From Petrimonas sp. IBARAKI (GTDB lineage Bacteria; Bacteroidota; Bacteroidia; Bacteroidales; Dysgonomonadaceae): DNA of 64,000 bases. This document shows, piece by piece, positions 32,278 to 39,667 of the stretch; the stretch's first letter is position 1; each line of letters starts with the position of its first letter. The position numbers and the translations under genes are program-made. The notes beneath the pieces were generated by a model. The model did not search any database. It saw nothing but the letters and a program-made list of their open reading frames with translations, and was not told where the DNA came from. The stretch lies in the NCBI GenBank assembly GCA_002356435.2, contig AP018040.2, positions 1,860,001 through 1,924,000 of the forward strand, given 5' to 3'.

Positions 32278-32352
32278 GGTGGTTATAGCTCAGTTGGTTA
32301 GAGCGACGGATTGTGGTTCCGTAGGTCGCGGGTTCGAATCCCGTTTTCCACC
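32278..32352 (+). tRNA. tRNA-His (anticodon GTG)
   Basis: The cloverleaf can be folded by hand: D arm GCTC/GAGC, anticodon stem ACGGA/TCCGT with loop TTGTGGT giving anticodon GTG, T arm GCGGG/CCCGT with loop TTCGAAT. An extra G at 32278 opposite C at 32352 is the G-1:C73 identity pair of tRNA-His. CCA is not encoded. In the acceptor stem GTGGTTA faces TTTCCAC, leaving two T-T mismatches at pairs 5:68 and 6:67. A promoter before it and a terminator after it suggest it is expressed. Confidence 0.93.
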
Positions 32353-32451: not shown

Positions 32452-33039
32452 CTACTTGTGCCTTCCTTTTAACACCCCTTCGATGTCTTCCAGTTTCAAC
32501 GCTTTTGTCTTCAACAGGATCAGGAAGTGATAGAGCAGGTCAGCCGCTTCGTTTTTAAACAGGTCGATGTTGTTATCCTTAGCTTCGATAACGAGCTCAA
32601 CGGCTTCTTCACCTACTTTTTGCGCCACTTTATTTACTCCGCTGTTGAAAAGCCTGCTCGTGTAGGATCCTTCGGTTTTAGCTTCTATCCGTTGTTCAAT
32701 CACTTTTTCCAGTTCATAGATAAAACCTTTCGGTGTTTCTTCGGAAAAACAGGTTGTGGCTCCGGTATGGCAGGTGGGTCCCTGAGGAAGGGCTTTGATC
32801 AGCAACGTGTCGTTATCACAATCTTCCCGGATTTCGTTCACGATAAGATAATTTCCGGAAGTTTCTCCTTTTGTCCATAACCGGTTCTGACTGCGGCTAA
32901 AAAAAGTAACCCGGCCTTCCGCTTTGGTTTTTTCGAGGGCTTCTTCATTCATGTAGCCGAGCATCAGCACTTGTAACGTATGGGTGTTCTGGATGATTAC
33001 CGGAACCAATCCTCCGGATTTTTTGAAATTGATGGTCAT
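32452..33039 (-). CDS. hisIE: Phosphoribosyl-AMP cyclohydrolase / phosphoribosyl-ATP pyrophosphatase
   Basis: Fused enzyme for steps 2 and 3 of histidine synthesis: HisE removes pyrophosphate from PR-ATP and HisI opens the adenine ring of PR-AMP. Length 195. The HisI half (1 to about 105) shows TKGETSGN, the metal motif DCDNDTLL and the zinc ligands in GPTCHTGATTCF. The HisE half (about 110-195) shows YTSRLFNSGVNKVAQKVGEE and AADLLYHFLILL. It is the last gene of the his operon, 14 bp after hisF. Confidence 0.96.
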   Translation of the reverse strand: MTINFKKSGGLVPVIIQNTHTLQVLMLGYMNEEALEKTKAEGRVTFFSRSQNRLWTKGETSGNYLIVNEIREDCDNDTLLIKALPQGPTCHTGATTCFSEETPKGFIYELEKVIEQRIEAKTEGSYTSRLFNSGVNKVAQKVGEEAVELVIEAKDNNIDLFKNEAADLLYHFLILLKTKALKLEDIEGVLKGRHK

Positions 33040-33053
33040 AATTTTTTTACTTT

Positions 33054-33809
33054 TTAAATCCTCACTTCAATGTTTTGTTGTTTTAAAAACTGTTTCAACC
33101 GGGGTATCGGTATTTCACCGAAATGGAAAATGCTTGCCGCCAATGCCGCACTTGCCCTTGTCTGTTGGAAGACATCAGCAAAATGTTGCATTGTCCCCGC
33201 GCCACCAGAGGCGACAACAGGAATATTGACGGCTGAGGAAACCGCGGCGGTGATATCGAGTGCGAAACCGTTTTTGGTACCGTCGTTGTTCATGGATGTA
33301 AGCAGAATTTCCCCTGCACCGCGCCGTTCGCCCTCCAGTGCCCAGTCAACGGCATTGAGTGGAGTAGGAGTCCTGCCTCCGTGAATATAAACCTTCCATT
33401 CACCGTCATCAAGCTTGGTGTCAATCGCCAGTACAACACACTGGCTGCCAAATTTTGCAGCAATTTCCGAAACAATCTCCGGATGATCTACAGCCGCAGT
33501 GTTAATGCTCACCTTGTCGGCTCCCGCTTTGATTATTGCCTGCGCATCTTCCACCGAATTTATGCCACCGCCCACGGTGAACGGGATGTTGATTTCACGG
33601 GCAATCTTTTCGACCAGTCCGGTCAGGTTCTTCCGTTTCTCAACGGTGGCGGTAATATCGAGAAACACCAGTTCATCCGCACCTTCCTGGACGTAACGTT
33701 TGGCCAGTTCCACAGCGTCGCCGGCATCGCGAAGCCCCACAAAGTTAATGCCTTTCACCGTCCGGCCATCCTTGATATCGAGGCAGGGAATAATTCTTTT
33801 TTTAAGCAT
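33054..33809 (-). CDS. hisF: Imidazole glycerol phosphate synthase, cyclase subunit
   Basis: With HisH makes imidazole glycerol phosphate and AICAR from PRFAR. A 251-residue beta/alpha barrel with [17 protein letters not shown] at the start (first catalytic Asp), AIDTKLDDG (second catalytic Asp), and the phosphate-binding VGGGINS and [10 protein letters not shown] loops. In the his operon, 32 bp after hisA; here hisA lies between hisH and hisF, as in many bacteria. Confidence 0.97.
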
Positions 33810-33841
33810 ATAAGTTTATATTTTTTGTTGTTTTAAACCCG

Positions 33842-34561
33842 TTACAGGAAACCCGCAACGCGTAACTCGTCCAGGCTAATTCTCCCTTCGTAAAGAGCTT
33901 TGCCGATAATGGCTCCCTCACAACCCAACTCCTTTACCTTTGTCAGATCATCCACCGATGATACGCCACCACTGGCAATCAGCTTAACATCGGTCTCCCG
34001 GAGGATTTCAGCGTAAAGCTCATTGGAAGTGCCTTGCAGCATGCCGTCTTTCGAGATGTCGGTACAGATCACGTATGTAACGCCTTTGCGTTCATAACCG
34101 GCAATAAAATCCACAACATCCAGTTCCGATTGCTGCTGCCATCCCTGGGTGGCAATTTTTCTGCCGTGGCTGTCTGCACCTAAAATAATCTTGTCCGGAC
34201 CGTATACCGACAGCCATTTTAAAAAAAGGTCCGGTTCTTGAGCAGCTATGCTTCCCACCGTAACCTGTGCAGCTCCGTTTTCGAAAGCGATGCGTACATC
34301 TTCATCGGTTTTAATACCTCCGCCAAAATCAACCGTCAATGAAGTTTTTGTTGATATTTTTCTCAGAATATCTTTATTCACAATATGTTTTGATTTGGCT
34401 CCATCCAAATCAACCAAGTGTAAATATCGAATTCCGTTGGCTTCAAACGATTTTGCAACTTCCACCGGATTTTCGTTATATATTTTTTGGGTGCTGTAAT
34501 CGCCTTTGGTCAGGCGGACACACTTTCCGTCAATAATGTCTATGGCAGGAATAATTCTCAT
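33842..34561 (-). CDS. hisA: ProFAR isomerase
   Basis: Converts ProFAR to PRFAR, the fourth step of histidine synthesis. A 239-residue beta/alpha barrel: [20 protein letters not shown] at the start, [29 protein letters not shown] with the second catalytic Asp, and [11 protein letters not shown] as phosphate loop. The ATG at 34561 is chosen; the longer frame would start with TTG at 34570. It starts 17 bp after hisH. Confidence 0.97.
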
Positions 34562-34578
34562 AAACTTCAATCGTTTGT

Positions 34579-35166
34579 TTACCTTATTTTCAAAAAATTC
34601 TTCAATATTCGTTCACCGACGTTCGCCGATTTCTCGGGATGGAACTGCGTGGCATAAAAATTCCTGTTCCGCATGGCGGCACTGAACGGCAAAATATAAT
34701 CGCACTCGGCGATAGTTTGCGCACAGCTCTCGGCATAATAACTGTGTACGAAATAGACCGTATCATCCTTTCCAAAACCATCAAAAAGCAATGACTCCGT
34801 ATGCTTCAGGTTGTCCCATCCGATGTGGGGAACAATGTCCGTCAACGGGAATTTTTTTACCGCAGTATCAAAGATACCCAGGCAGCCGGTGTTTCCCTCT
34901 TCCGAATACCGGCACAGCAGTTGCAGGCCTAGGCATATTCCCAGAACGGGCTGCCCGAGCGTTTTTATTACCGCATCCAGCTTCCGCTCTTTTAAATATT
35001 CCATGGCCGACGATGCTTCGCCCACACCGGGAAAAATAACCTTATCCGCACGGCGGATTTCAACCTCGCTATCGGTAATGACGCACTGATGCCCCAACCG
35101 CTCCACCGCATTTTTTACCGACGCGATGTTGCCAGCATTGTATTTGATGATAGCAACCATTGACAT
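34579..35166 (-). CDS. hisH: Imidazole glycerol phosphate synthase, glutaminase subunit
   Basis: Class I glutamine amidotransferase that feeds ammonia to HisF. Length 195. The catalytic triad is visible: Cys in [10 protein letters not shown], and His and Glu in TQFHPEKSA. The start ATG shares one base with the stop codon of hisB (TAATG), so translation is coupled. An ATG two codons later is an alternative. Confidence 0.97.
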
Positions 35167-36257
35167 TATAATATTCCTTTTGTGCTGGGAATTCCTGTAT
35201 TTTCACCACGTTTCACCGCCATCTTGATCGATTTGGCGAATGCTTTGAAAATGGCTTCCGCTTTGTGATGTTCGTTATCGCCTTCGGCTTTGATGTTAAG
35301 GTTACACCTGGCGTTATCGGAAAACGACTTGAAGAAGTGCATAAACATTTCGGCAGGCACATCTCCAATTCTCTCGCGTTTAAAATCCACCTCCCAGACC
35401 AGCCAAGGCCGGCCGCCGAAGTCGATAGCAACCTGTGCCAGGCAATCGTCCATGGGCAGCAGAAACCCGTAACGTTCTATACCCTTCTTCTTCCCCAGTG
35501 CTTGTAAAAAAGCCTCTCCCAGGGCGATGGCCGTATCTTCGACCGTATGGTGTTCGTCGATATGCAAATCACCGTTTACCCGGATGGAGAGGTCCACATT
35601 TCCGTGACGGGCAATTTGCTCCAACATATGGTCGAAAAACCCTAATCCTGTAGCTATCCGGCTTTTTCCTGATCCGTCAAGATTGATCTCCACAACGATA
35701 TCGGTTTCTGAAGTTTTGCGGCGGACAATTCCTTTTCTGGGTTCCAACTTCAAGTAGGCGTATATCTCGGCCCAGTCGGTCGTGCACAGCACGGCATCAT
35801 CGGTTTTATCCACGTTCAGGTAAATGGCTTTGCAGCCAAGGTTTCTGGCCAACCGCACATCAGTTTTCCGGTCTCCGATAACGTAAGAGTTTTCCAAATC
35901 GTAACCCCCTTTTGTGTAATGTGTCAGCAACGCTATCCCCGGTTTTCGGGTAGGAAGGTTTTCGTGTTCAAAAGAGCGGTCGATAAGGATTTCGCTAAAA
36001 ACAACCCCTTCGTTTTCGAATGCTTTTACCATTTTATGGTGTGCCGGCCAGAACGTATCTTCGGGAAAAGACGGAGTTCCCAACCCGTCCTGATTCGTCA
36101 CCATAACCAATTCATATTCCAATTCTCGGGCAATCCGCGACAGGTACTGAAATACTTGCGGGTAAAACTCCAGCTTCTCCAGGCTGTCAATCTGGAAGTC
36201 AACGGGCGGCTCGATAACCAGTGTTCCGTCCCGGTCGATAAATAAAACTTTTTTCAT
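35166..36257 (-). CDS. hisB: Histidinol-phosphatase / imidazoleglycerol-phosphate dehydratase
   Basis: Bifunctional enzyme of 363 residues. The N-terminal HAD phosphatase (1 to about 165) has the nucleophile motif FIDRDGT (Asp8, Asp10), VTNQDG and [10 protein letters not shown]. The C-terminal dehydratase (about 170-363) has [30 protein letters not shown] and [13 protein letters not shown], whose His residues bind manganese. The Cys/His zinc loop known from E. coli HisB is absent: the corresponding stretch reads [15 protein letters not shown]. The start overlaps the hisC stop codon by 4 bp. Confidence 0.97.
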
Positions 36258-37285
36258 ACAAGGGTGCGTAATTTATTCAACAACTCCTCATTCTCACCGG
36301 GAGTGCCGATGGTAATTCTCACACAGTTTGTCACCTGCCTGTTCCGGTTGCGGACAATCACCTTTTTTTGTACCAGTTCGTTGTAAATCCAGTTGGCATC
36401 TGATACTTCAACCAAGAGGAAGTTGGCATCCGAAGGATAAATCTTCTTTACAATTTCCAGTTTCGATAATTCTTCGGCGAGATATGCTCTTTGCTGCAGA
36501 ATCGTGTCGCGGCGCTTTTCAAATTCATCCACGCGCGAAAGCGCTTCCAGGGCAACTTGCTGATTGATGATACTGACGTTGTAGGGCGGTTTGGTTTTGT
36601 CCAGCAACGATATGATTTTTTCGCCGGCAAAAGCCATTCCAACCCGGACACCCGCCAACGCCCATGCTTTGCTGAATGTCTGCATCACAATAAGGTGGGA
36701 GTATTTGTTTATTTTGCTTTTCAGGCTGTATTCGGGGCAAAAATCCACGTAAGCTTCGTCTGCCACCACGATTCCGTTAAAGTTTTCAAGCAGCTTCTCC
36801 AGGTTGTCCAACCTGTTCCCGGTGGGGTTATTCGGTGAGCAAACGAAAATAAGCTTTACGGAACTGTCTGTTTCGGCCGTCTGCAGGATCTTTTCAATAT
36901 CAAGCTGAAAATCGGATGTTAATGGGATTTCATGCAGTTGGATGTGATTGATGTTAGCCGAGACTTCGTACATCCCGTAAGTGGGCGGACAAACAATCGC
37001 GCTGTCTTTTCCAGGTTCACAGAAAATTCGGTATATCAGGTCGATGACCTCGTCACTTCCGTTGCCGATAAAAATCTGGTTGAAAGGTACGTTTTTAACT
37101 TCTGACAGCTTCGTCTTTAACGCTTTCTGGTGGGGGTCGGGATACCGGTTGAGTGTCCCGTACGGATTTTCGTTTGCATCGAGAAAGATACCTTCGTTGC
37201 CCGAAAATTCATCGCGGGCACTTGAATAGGGTTTTAGTGCCAGGATATTCGGCCTGACCATTTTTTCTATATCAACTGTTCTCAT
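36254..37285 (-). CDS. hisC: Histidinol-phosphate aminotransferase
   Basis: PLP-dependent transaminase that makes histidinol phosphate. A 343-residue fold-type I enzyme. Seen are [17 protein letters not shown] near the start, the PLP-contacting [10 protein letters not shown] and [10 protein letters not shown], the Schiff-base Lys in [11 protein letters not shown], and the phosphate-binding Arg in AGVRVGMAF. The start lies inside the end of hisD (14-bp overlap). Confidence 0.96.
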
Positions 37286-38585
37286 AATTCTTTGCTTGCT
37301 GTGCCGACACTTCGCCCAAACGCAGTGTCATGGCATTCTTGTGAGCGAAAAGTTCTTCTGCTTCAGCCATGGTTTCCACGGCTACCCCGATACCGACAAT
37401 TCCTTCTTCCGACAGTTGCTGAAAGGTGATTTTCTTTATAAAGCTGTCCAGAGAAACGCCGCTGTATGCTTTCGCGTATCCGCTTGTGGGAAGCGTGTGG
37501 TTAGTGCCGCTAGCGTAATCACCGGCACTTTCGCAACTGTAGTTCCCCAGAAAAACGGAGCCCGCGTTGGTCACCTCACGGCTGCGCAAAACAGGATTCT
37601 CTACCGCCAGGATCAGGTGCTCGGGAGCGTAAACGTTGCTGAAGCGGATGCAGGTCTCTACGTCTTTAAACAAAATGGCACGGCTGTTCTTCAGCGCTTT
37701 TTCCGCCATTTCTTTTCGCGGCAGATTCGCCAGTTGAATATCGAGTTCCTTGTTTATTTCCTTAACCACCTTTTTGTTGTCCGACAAAAGGATGACCTCA
37801 CTGTCCGGCCCGTGTTCTGCCTGAGAAAGCAGGTCGGAGGCGACGAACGACGGGCGGCAGGTCTCATCCGCCACCACAAGGAGTTCGCTGGGTCCGGCAG
37901 GCATATCGATAGCTGTACCGTAGTACTGGGCGGCATGCTTTGCCGTCATCACGTACTGGTTGCCTGGGCCGAATATTTTCTCTACTTTCGGGACGGACTT
38001 CGTGCCGAAAGACATGGCCCCGATAGCCTGGATACCTCCGACCGCAAATATGCGGGTTACCCCCGCAAGGTTCGCTGCGTAAAGAATGGCGGGGTGGATA
38101 GCGCCTTCCTTGCCGGGAGGCGAACAAAGCACGATCTCTTTACAGCCGGCTATCTTTGCCGGAATGGCCAGCATCAGTACCGTGGAAAAAAGAGGAGCGG
38201 TTCCTCCGGGGACATAAATCCCTACCTTCTCGATAGGCCGTGCTTCGCGCCAGCATACCACACCGGGAGAGGTTTCCACTTTTACAATTTCCTCTTTCTG
38301 CGAAAAGTGGAATTTCTCGATGTTGCTTTTTGCAAGGGCGATGGCTTGCTTCAACCGTTCCGAGACCTGTTGCGACGCCGCCTCGATTGTCTCGTGATCA
38401 ACCGTGAAGTCATCCGCCGAAAACCTGTCAAACTGCCGGGCATATTTCAACACCGCCTTATCACCTTTTTTACGGATATCGTAAAAAACCTTGTCCACTA
38501 ACTCCATCAACCTGGCTTGCTTGATGGCGGACCTTTCTGCCAATTGCGGCCATTTCCTTTCGGCCGGGTTGTTTAATGTTTTCAC
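37272..38585 (-). CDS. hisD: Histidinol dehydrogenase
   Basis: Zinc enzyme for the last two oxidation steps from histidinol to histidine. The 437-residue length is typical. Blocks seen include IYVPGGTAPLFSTVLM, VGGIQAIGAMSFGT, FGPGNQYVMTAK, the zinc and catalytic region SQAEHGPDSEV, the catalytic His in YAPEHLILAV, and the C-terminal GTNHTLPTSGYAKAYSG. Located 2 bp after hisG. Confidence 0.97.
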   Translation of the reverse strand: MKTLNNPAERKWPQLAERSAIKQARLMELVDKVFYDIRKKGDKAVLKYARQFDRFSADDFTVDHETIEAASQQVSERLKQAIALAKSNIEKFHFSQKEEIVKVETSPGVVCWREARPIEKVGIYVPGGTAPLFSTVLMLAIPAKIAGCKEIVLCSPPGKEGAIHPAILYAANLAGVTRIFAVGGIQAIGAMSFGTKSVPKVEKIFGPGNQYVMTAKHAAQYYGTAIDMPAGPSELLVVADETCRPSFVASDLLSQAEHGPDSEVILLSDNKKVVKEINKELDIQLANLPRKEMAEKALKNSRAILFKDVETCIRFSNVYAPEHLILAVENPVLRSREVTNAGSVFLGNYSCESAGDYASGTNHTLPTSGYAKAYSGVSLDSFIKKITFQQLSEEGIVGIGVAVETMAEAEELFAHKNAMTLRLGEVSAQQAKNYENS

Positions 38586-38587
38586 TT

Positions 38588-39445
38588 TTAGAGTATCATT
38601 TTCTCAATGTTCATCACTAAGATTCCCTGGGCATTCACGTCTTTCAACGCATCAATCACATCCCAAAACTGGTCTTCCTGTACTACCGAGTGCACGCTGC
38701 TCCATCCCTCTTCGGCAAGCGGAAGGATACTGGGCGATTTCATACCCGGAAGGATGGAACAAATTTTTGGAATTGACGAATTTGGTGCATTCATTACAAT
38801 GTACTTGCTACCCATGCCTTTCTTATATGCCCGTATGCGAAAAAGAAACCTTTCCAGCAGCTCTTGTTTGACTTCGTTGAGGCTCTTGTTGGCAATCAGT
38901 ACCGCTTCACTCTTTATGATGGCCTCAACTTCTTTTAGGCCGTTCATAATAAGGGTACTGCCCGTACTTACAATATCAAAAATCCCATCAGCCAGCCCAA
39001 TCCCGGTGGCAATCTCAACACTCCCTCCCAGTTCTTCGATCTTTACATCAATGCCTTTAACGCCGAAGTACTTTTTGAGAATTTTCGGATAGCTGGTGGC
39101 AATGCGTTTCCCGTGAAAATAATCCAGGTTGGTATACACTTCATCCTTGGGAATAGCGAGCGAAAGCCGACAGTTGCCGAATCCCAGCTTTTCAATTTCA
39201 TCCACGTCTTTTTCTTTTTCCCACACTTCGTTTTCTCCCAGGATACCGATGTCTGCAACGCCATTTTCAACGTATTGAGGAATATCATCGTCACGTAGGA
39301 AAAGGATTTCCATGGGGAAATTGCGGGCTTCTGTCCTGAGTTTCCGGTCACCGTTCGATACCTTAATGCCGCATTCGTTCAACAGCTGCAACGATTTTTC
39401 GCTTAATCGTCCGCTTTTCTGGATGGCTATTTTCAGTTTTTCCAT
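38588..39445 (-). CDS. hisG: ATP phosphoribosyltransferase, long form
   Basis: First and rate-setting enzyme of histidine synthesis, joining ATP and PRPP. At 285 residues this is the long form, which has a C-terminal ACT-like regulatory domain and does not need HisZ. Seen: IAIQKSGRLSEKSL near the start, the PRPP loop region GIGLADGIFDIVSTGSTL, and the C-terminal domain from about 205. First gene of the operon. Expression is probably set by the attenuator 50-170 bp upstream, and activity by histidine feedback. Confidence 0.97.
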   Translation of the reverse strand: MEKLKIAIQKSGRLSEKSLQLLNECGIKVSNGDRKLRTEARNFPMEILFLRDDDIPQYVENGVADIGILGENEVWEKEKDVDEIEKLGFGNCRLSLAIPKDEVYTNLDYFHGKRIATSYPKILKKYFGVKGIDVKIEELGGSVEIATGIGLADGIFDIVSTGSTLIMNGLKEVEAIIKSEAVLIANKSLNEVKQELLERFLFRIRAYKKGMGSKYIVMNAPNSSIPKICSILPGMKSPSILPLAEEGWSSVHSVVQEDQFWDVIDALKDVNAQGILVMNIEKMIL

Positions 39446-39492: not shown

Positions 39493-39523
39493 AAAAAAAC
39501 CCGCCTGAGCTGTTCAGACGGGT
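39493..39523 (-). terminator. Attenuator terminator in the his leader
   Basis: On the minus strand a 10-bp stem (ACCCGTCTGA with TCAGGCGGGT, one G-T pair) closes a 5-nt loop ACAGC and runs into seven T. It lies between the leader peptide and hisG, 47 bp before the hisG start, so it can stop transcription before the structural genes. Loop and stem bases 39507-39512 (CAGCTC) are complementary to GAGCTG at 39559-39564 at the end of the leader ORF, which gives a competing antiterminator helix. Confidence 0.92.
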
Positions 39524-39557
39524 CTATGTTGTATATTCATGCTTCTACACATCCTAT

Positions 39558-39614
39558 TCAGCTCGCCTGATTGCAAGTATGAAAATGATGATGGTGAAGC
39601 TTGTTTACTTTCAT
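39558..39614 (-). CDS. hisL: Histidine operon leader peptide
   Basis: A short ORF, ATG to TGA, encoding MKVNKLHHHHFHTCNQAS: 18 residues with five His, four in a row (codons CAC CAT CAT CAT). It starts about 20 nt after the promoter -7 box. The last codons and the stop overlap GAGCTG, one strand of the antiterminator. A ribosome stalled at the His codons would leave GAGCTG free to pair with the terminator loop, while a ribosome reaching the stop would cover it and let the terminator form. This is the known logic of ribosome-mediated attenuation; the operation here is inferred from sequence. Confidence 0.9.
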   Translation of the reverse strand: MKVNKLHHHHFHTCNQAS

Positions 39615-39633
39615 TTTATCTATTTTGATAACG

Positions 39634-39667
39634 CAAAGATAATAGAATAATTTTAATGCGGGACAAA
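39634..39667 (-). promoter_or_regulatory. Promoter of the his operon
   Basis: On the minus strand TTTG (39664-39667), a 22-nt gap and TATCTTTG (39634-39641) match the Bacteroidota -33/-7 pattern, at the upper end of the usual spacing. Transcription would begin near 39628, about 14 nt before the leader peptide start. Confidence 0.75.

Follow-up and report, generated by a model that had tools for sequence, protein, structure and literature searches.

A highly probable ribosome-mediated attenuator with a His-run leader ORF upstream of hisG in Petrimonas sp. IBARAKI, and comparable leaders across Bacteroidota

The window, i.e., the whole 64,000-nucleotide stretch of DNA analyzed here, carries on its minus strand a leader that precedes hisGDCBHAFIE, with the histidine biosynthesis genes located 3′ of the leader according to NCBIfam. 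The neighboring ORF on the opposite side (39772, plus strand) is directed away from the leader. A tRNA gene (Rfam RF00005) lies at 32279-32352 on the plus strand, directly beyond the 3′ end of the operon. The features of the locus are as follows.

39664..39667, minus strand: promoter-like upstream TTTG, spacing N22 (direct sequence reading)
39634..39641, minus strand: promoter-like TATCTTTG (TAnnTTTG); TA and TTTG columns invariant in 50/50 aligned leaders
39558..39614, minus strand: leader ORF MKVNKLHHHHFHTCNQAS, 18 codons, from ATG at 39614 to TGA at 39558 (direct reading and relatives)
39579..39596, minus strand: putative sensor, His codons 1 to 4, Phe, His codon 5 (CAC CAT CAT CAT TTT CAT)
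39538..39603, minus strand: predicted protector hairpin of the ribosome-free leader (MFE fold)
39573..39577, minus strand: segment 1, CUUGC, pairs with GCGAG at 39566-39562
39564..39570, minus strand: segment 2, UCAGGCG, 5′ strand of the antiterminator
39514..39520, minus strand: segment 3, CGUCUGA, 3′ strand of the antiterminator and part of the terminator 5′ arm
39499..39523, minus strand: intrinsic terminator hairpin, ten pairs, arms 39523-39514 and 39508-39499
39493..39499, minus strand: U tract, seven T (direct reading)
38588..39445, minus strand: hisG, first gene of the operon, ATG at 39445 (NCBIfam TIGR00070, above cut-off)
32452..38585, minus strand: hisD, hisC, hisB, hisH, hisA, hisF, hisIE (NCBIfam, best family of each gene above cut-off)

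Direct reading of the sequence agreed with the promoter proposed in the first-pass annotation, TTTG (39667-39664) followed after 22 nucleotides by TATCTTTG (39641-39634), and with its ten-bp terminator and seven T before hisG. We take TTTG to be the -33 type and TAnnTTTG the -7 type promoter element of Bacteroidota. The leader ORF had been described as encoding 18 residues with four consecutive His codons; its length and the run at 39596-39585 stand, but a fifth His codon (39581-39579) among the 18 had been overlooked. The terminator hairpin folded at -18.5 kcal/mol within a 55-nt context, and segment 2 is a copy of the beginning of its 3′ arm. Ten terminator-like sites were found in the window (6 on the plus and 4 on the minus strand), and only that of the his locus has a His-run ORF 5′ of it. 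The sequence ahead of the leader ATG (39615-39627, GATAAAATG) is A-rich and without a Shine-Dalgarno-like purine tract; an A-rich stretch ahead of the start codon is usual in Bacteroidota.

HisG was detected in 85 of the 101 family genomes, giving 87 match rows, and the named relatives belong to Seramator, Proteiniphilum, Fermentimonas and Petrimonas, Proteiniphilum being placed in Dysgonomonadaceae, Bacteroidales, Bacteroidota. Upstream DNA covered 70 of the 87 rows, with 17 left out. These fall into group A (51 rows), with HisG 72-100% identical to that of the window and the peptide MK[VA]N..HHHHFHTC.QA[SR] or close variants, and group B (19 rows), with HisG 51-58% identical, different peptides and, in most cases, a GCUUACC terminator. 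A His-run ORF was present within 300 bases upstream in 65 of the 70 rows; L041, L054, L062, L069 and L070 had none in that interval. The family harbors two hisG types, that of the window (38588-39445) and that of L052-L070, each with different leader types.

With a covariance model built from 49 group-A leaders (R1), strong matches (E <= 1.1e-6) numbered 54 across the 101 family genomes. Every family genome whose group-A hisG is full-length (52/52) had the leader upstream of that gene, including one in which a contig end truncates the leader (G073) and one in which it lies beyond the 300-base scan (G071, locus L041). The remaining two strong matches were in G069, with a partial hisG just 3′, and in G099, where hisG was not found. 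Seven weaker matches (E 2e-4 to 8e-4) were obtained; five are upstream of a group-B hisG, one of these five at a distance of about 500 bases. At the level of the class, 57/296 genomes matched at E <= 0.01; a single covariance model misses much because the letters of the RNA turn over while the logic holds. Among those of the 57 genomes that were listed with a hisG position (n=15), 13 matches were just 5′ of hisG, and two (E > 0.004) were elsewhere. A second weak match in the Petrimonas genome itself (G000:C1:1775369-1775537, E 0.006) was located at a gene-end terminator and was set aside.

The alignment of the 49 group-A leaders revealed three conserved helices. The antiterminator UCAGGCG/CGUCUGA was paired in 99.1% of cells, versus 27.5-42.9% when one strand was slid by 1 to 3 columns. 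Both sides of one pair were changed together in L008 and L009, and one-sided changes with pairing kept occurred in L015, L026 and L038. The terminator helix was paired in 97.8% of cells, and the helix between segments 1 and 2, CUUGC/GCGAG, in 98.4%, with one double change (L038). The strong conservation of group A leaves few double changes: RNAalifold over the whole leader returned 19 pairs, one of them with a double change, and we therefore turned to counts helix by helix and to comparing leader types that are unrelated. The spacer motif GATRTG at first resembled a separate element, a view that was set aside; the motif pairs with the His codons in the window fold, but its enrichment is weak outside group A (33/50 spacers in group A with 3.2 expected, 4/14 in group B with 1.3, and 3/43 in the phylum with 1.0).

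Folding of the ribosome-free 135-nt leader yielded -39.6 kcal/mol (z = -5.28, 0/200 shuffles as low). In the corresponding MFE structure a long hairpin pairs the spacer with the His codons and hides segment 2 near its tip. The stretch ahead of the terminator had z < -2 in 63/107 leaders and z > 2 in none. Ribosome states were modeled by computing pair probabilities for the RNA outside the ribosome at the moment segment 3 is completed, on the assumption that the 3′ edge of the footprint lies 12 nt beyond the first A-site base. For a ribosome positioned at His codons 1 to 4, the antiterminator of the window had a probability of 0.89-0.96, falling to 0.69 at His 5 and to 0 at the stop codon; without a ribosome it was 0, and the 1:2 helix 1.0. 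The means over 49 leaders were similar (0.88-0.95 at His 1-4, 0.70 at His 5 in 37 leaders, 0.00 at stop). The ribosome-free mean was 0.21, and the protector is therefore imperfect in some leaders. As modeled, the antiterminator is predicted to be mutually exclusive with the terminator, and a ribosome that has reached the stop codon could cover it. Antiterminator-state RNA was no more stable than shuffled sequences (z -0.35). Full equilibrium favored the terminator whatever the ribosome state (window value 0.98); the switch must therefore be a kinetic one, decided during RNA synthesis.

These computations establish the parts of the leader, their conservation and the mutually exclusive helices. 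With high probability, the locus is a transcription attenuator in which the translating ribosome senses charged tRNA-His and UCAGGCG/CGUCUGA is the antiterminator. We infer the start site, ribosome stalling, read-through and histidine response along the following lines. Transcription would start near 39627, and a ribosome would then translate the 18-codon leader. When His-tRNA is ample, the ribosome would reach the stop codon and cover segment 2, allowing segments 3 and 4 to pair, and the resulting terminator would keep hisG off. When His-tRNA is short, stalling in the five-His run would open the protector and leave segment 2 free to pair with segment 3, which would block the terminator and permit transcription of hisGDCBHAFIE. 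If no ribosome is present, the protector would hide segment 2 and the terminator would form. Ribosome-mediated his attenuation, as proposed in the first-pass annotation, is thus strongly supported in kind by conservation, alternative helices and ribosome-state folding.

We then considered hisG upstream regions across the phylum. A HisG match was present in 252/296 genomes drawn from Bacteroidota, from which 69 upstream regions were examined (29 listed loci and 40 picked for spread); this sample comes from the matches listed and hardly includes HisG matches weaker than about E 1e-42, and two matches near E ~1e-42 (L138, L139) had no leader. A short His-run ORF occurred in 54/69 regions, versus 0.45 in dinucleotide shuffles. 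Runs of any other residue on the same strand were found in 0 to 9 regions. On the reverse strand there were 1 for His and 29 for Met, the latter because CAT read backwards is ATG. No His-run ORF was found within 300 bases upstream in 15/69 regions, one of which (L080) has such an ORF farther upstream. Of 496 named hisG loci the best 80 were examined; the ORF was present in 70 and a hairpin before T in 68. Of the 80, 37 are family genomes already counted; the other 43 (ORF in 35/43, hairpin in 33/43, that of L220 reaching only -0.8 kcal/mol) include Flavobacterium, Planktosalinus, Chitinophagaceae and Saprospiraceae records.

The scan located a terminator for 108/119 leaders. The terminator types include CCGYYUGA, GCUURCC and CCCCGGC-like ones, many of them matched by a strand of their own leader. 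Complementarity between the leader end and the terminator 5′ arm reached p <= 0.05 in 39/50 group-A, 6/14 group-B and 27/43 phylum leaders; the 11, 8 and 16 leaders, respectively, with p > 0.05 count against the attenuator reading, in a test that excluded L120 by a length filter and in which the script's best helix may differ from the one expected biologically. Leaders paired better with their own terminator arms than with foreign ones (14.33 versus 10.83, 0/5000 permutations), and this held with distinct arms only (13.93 versus 10.79, 0/5000). The phylum leaders, mostly of other sequences, very probably follow the same logic as the window attenuator. Four leaders 5′ of hisG (L073, L074, L075 and L078) end in HHFHHSS, and the scan found no terminator there; they are perhaps translational attenuators or use another terminator type.

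The same kind of attenuator could be built with another antiterminator. The first-pass annotation had pointed to GAGCTG (39564-39559) and CAGCTC (39512-39507), which are indeed at these positions and mutually complementary, and the first two pairs of this helix are kept in 45/49 and 44/49 relatives. However, those two pair positions are common to segment 2 and the terminator 3′ arm, and pairs 3 and 4 are unpaired in 28/49 and 32/49 relatives. Pairing of this helix over the 49 relatives reached 70.6% of cells, on a level with the mean after shuffling (70.5); shuffle counts of this kind are not probabilities. Within the same genus, L003 (CAGTTC) could keep it through one G-U, but L004 has CACTTC and L005 and L006 lack such a string. 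The alignment of relatives suggested at the outset showed the His ORF to be kept and a few compensating changes to occur in UCAGGCG/CGUCUGA and CUUGC/GCGAG, with covariation of the proposed helix at the shuffled level. Loss of pairing in close relatives, named beforehand as evidence against the proposal, is what we observed for GAGCTG/CAGCTC, a helix that we consider extremely improbable as the antiterminator; UCAGGCG/CGUCUGA does the same job.

The attenuator with UCAGGCG/CGUCUGA was also weighed against other sensors. Conservation of the group-A peptide beyond its His residues (HHHHFHTC.QA[SR]) might reflect a TnaC-like nascent peptide that arrests the ribosome upon free histidine, with the same RNA switch 3′. 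Yet the T-C-x-Q-A residues are explained by segments 1 and 2, which encode them, outside group A the peptides have little in common except the His run, and a peptide sensor would be expected to stall at plentiful ligand, i.e., with the wrong sign; we regard this as very unlikely. Still a little less credible is a hairpin acting as a riboswitch or as a protein-controlled terminator next to an incidental His-run ORF. The terminator is strong, and an undescribed aptamer would escape exclusion by name, but an incidental ORF is at odds with the excess of His runs over both expectation and other residues in the phylum regions, and no Rfam 15 family matched at gathering score in the window leader or in 20 other loci.

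Leader types cluster on a tree built from 52 HisG rows, with 4 changes against 18.1 on average after shuffling. On this tree, whose bootstrap had not settled and for which 15 leader labels were assigned by hand, the window's family contributes nine rows, and these join Flavobacteria-type, Chitinophagaceae and Saprospiraceae rows in one group (support 100/99). Group B of the family was left out of this tree because only part of its hisG was fetched. Flavobacterium HisG is about 70% identical to that of the window, versus the 51-58% of group B; this greater closeness suggests that the his operon was transferred together with its leader. We see the balance as even for a joint reading in which attenuation would be the old default control of his genes in Bacteroidota, with an origin separate from the enterobacterial one; the peptide and helices would have been replaced wholesale several times, with the three-helix logic and the protector kept, and the attenuator would travel with the operon.

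Rfam RF00514 (His_leader) scored 27.1 bits in the window leader (E 0.013), below its gathering score of 49 bits. This is consistent with the earlier remark that the locus may be an independent case; a common origin with hisL, too old to see, is conceivable. Bacteroid-trp (RF01692), a trp attenuator, was not among the window-leader matches at E up to 10 and, unlike the window leader, does not concern histidine but tryptophan. Enterobacterial hisL consists of a leader ORF with a His run, three alternative helices and a terminator. The window leader very probably works like hisL and lies outside Rfam His_leader, and it is one of a widespread Bacteroidota set. It shares with hisL the His codons in a row within a short ORF, the three alternative helices and the terminator before hisG (passages of PMC9413887), and differs in the sequence of its peptide and helices, in its host phylum and in its sub-gathering Rfam score. 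Firmicutes his leaders, with three to five consecutive His codons, a terminator and an antiterminator, are described for the Bacillus cereus group, Eubacteriales and Erysipelotrichales in the same passages (PMC9413887), and hisS/hisZ leaders are counted among the Firmicutes His-leader attenuators in parts of PMC2965389. Judged from these descriptions, the window leader very probably follows the same logic at histidine genes.

For Bacteroidetes, a table entry of PMC2864571 presents Bacteroid-trp as a candidate structured RNA, passages of PMC7366714 mention Bacteroides thetaiotaomicron ORFs reminiscent of leader peptides, and those of PMC8632094 describe other uORF motifs. 'Histidine' and 'hisG' are absent from the main text of PMC7366714. 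The titles and abstracts found report no his attenuator in Bacteroidota. The attenuation survey of Lopatovskaya et al. 2010, seen as a citation in PMC4833913, may already list one, and we therefore make no claim that the attenuator is unpublished.

The literature passages on his attenuators concern other phyla only, and for Bacteroidota, which are major gut, soil and water bacteria, the leader would add amino-acid sensing to a core operon without an Rfam match in the loci tested. The set of leaders is a natural series in which to study how evolution rebuilds alternative RNA helices. Coupling between ribosome and RNA polymerase in Bacteroidota also becomes testable, because such attenuation needs it.

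Other amino acid loci of the Petrimonas genome were scanned as well. No leader-plus-terminator was found in the 3.5 kb upstream of ilvD, which is no proof of absence since the same scan overlooked a likely trp leader with only four T. This latter region (L232) contains an ORF, MNISLANGYWWRYLQLNRS (1955-2014), with two adjacent Trp codons 5′ of a trpB-like ORF, and a hairpin followed by four T at about 2063-2093, between the MNISLANGYWWRYLQLNRS ORF and the next one. It is likely a trp leader; it gave no Rfam gathering-score match, and inspection by eye showed no antiterminator as clear as the his one.
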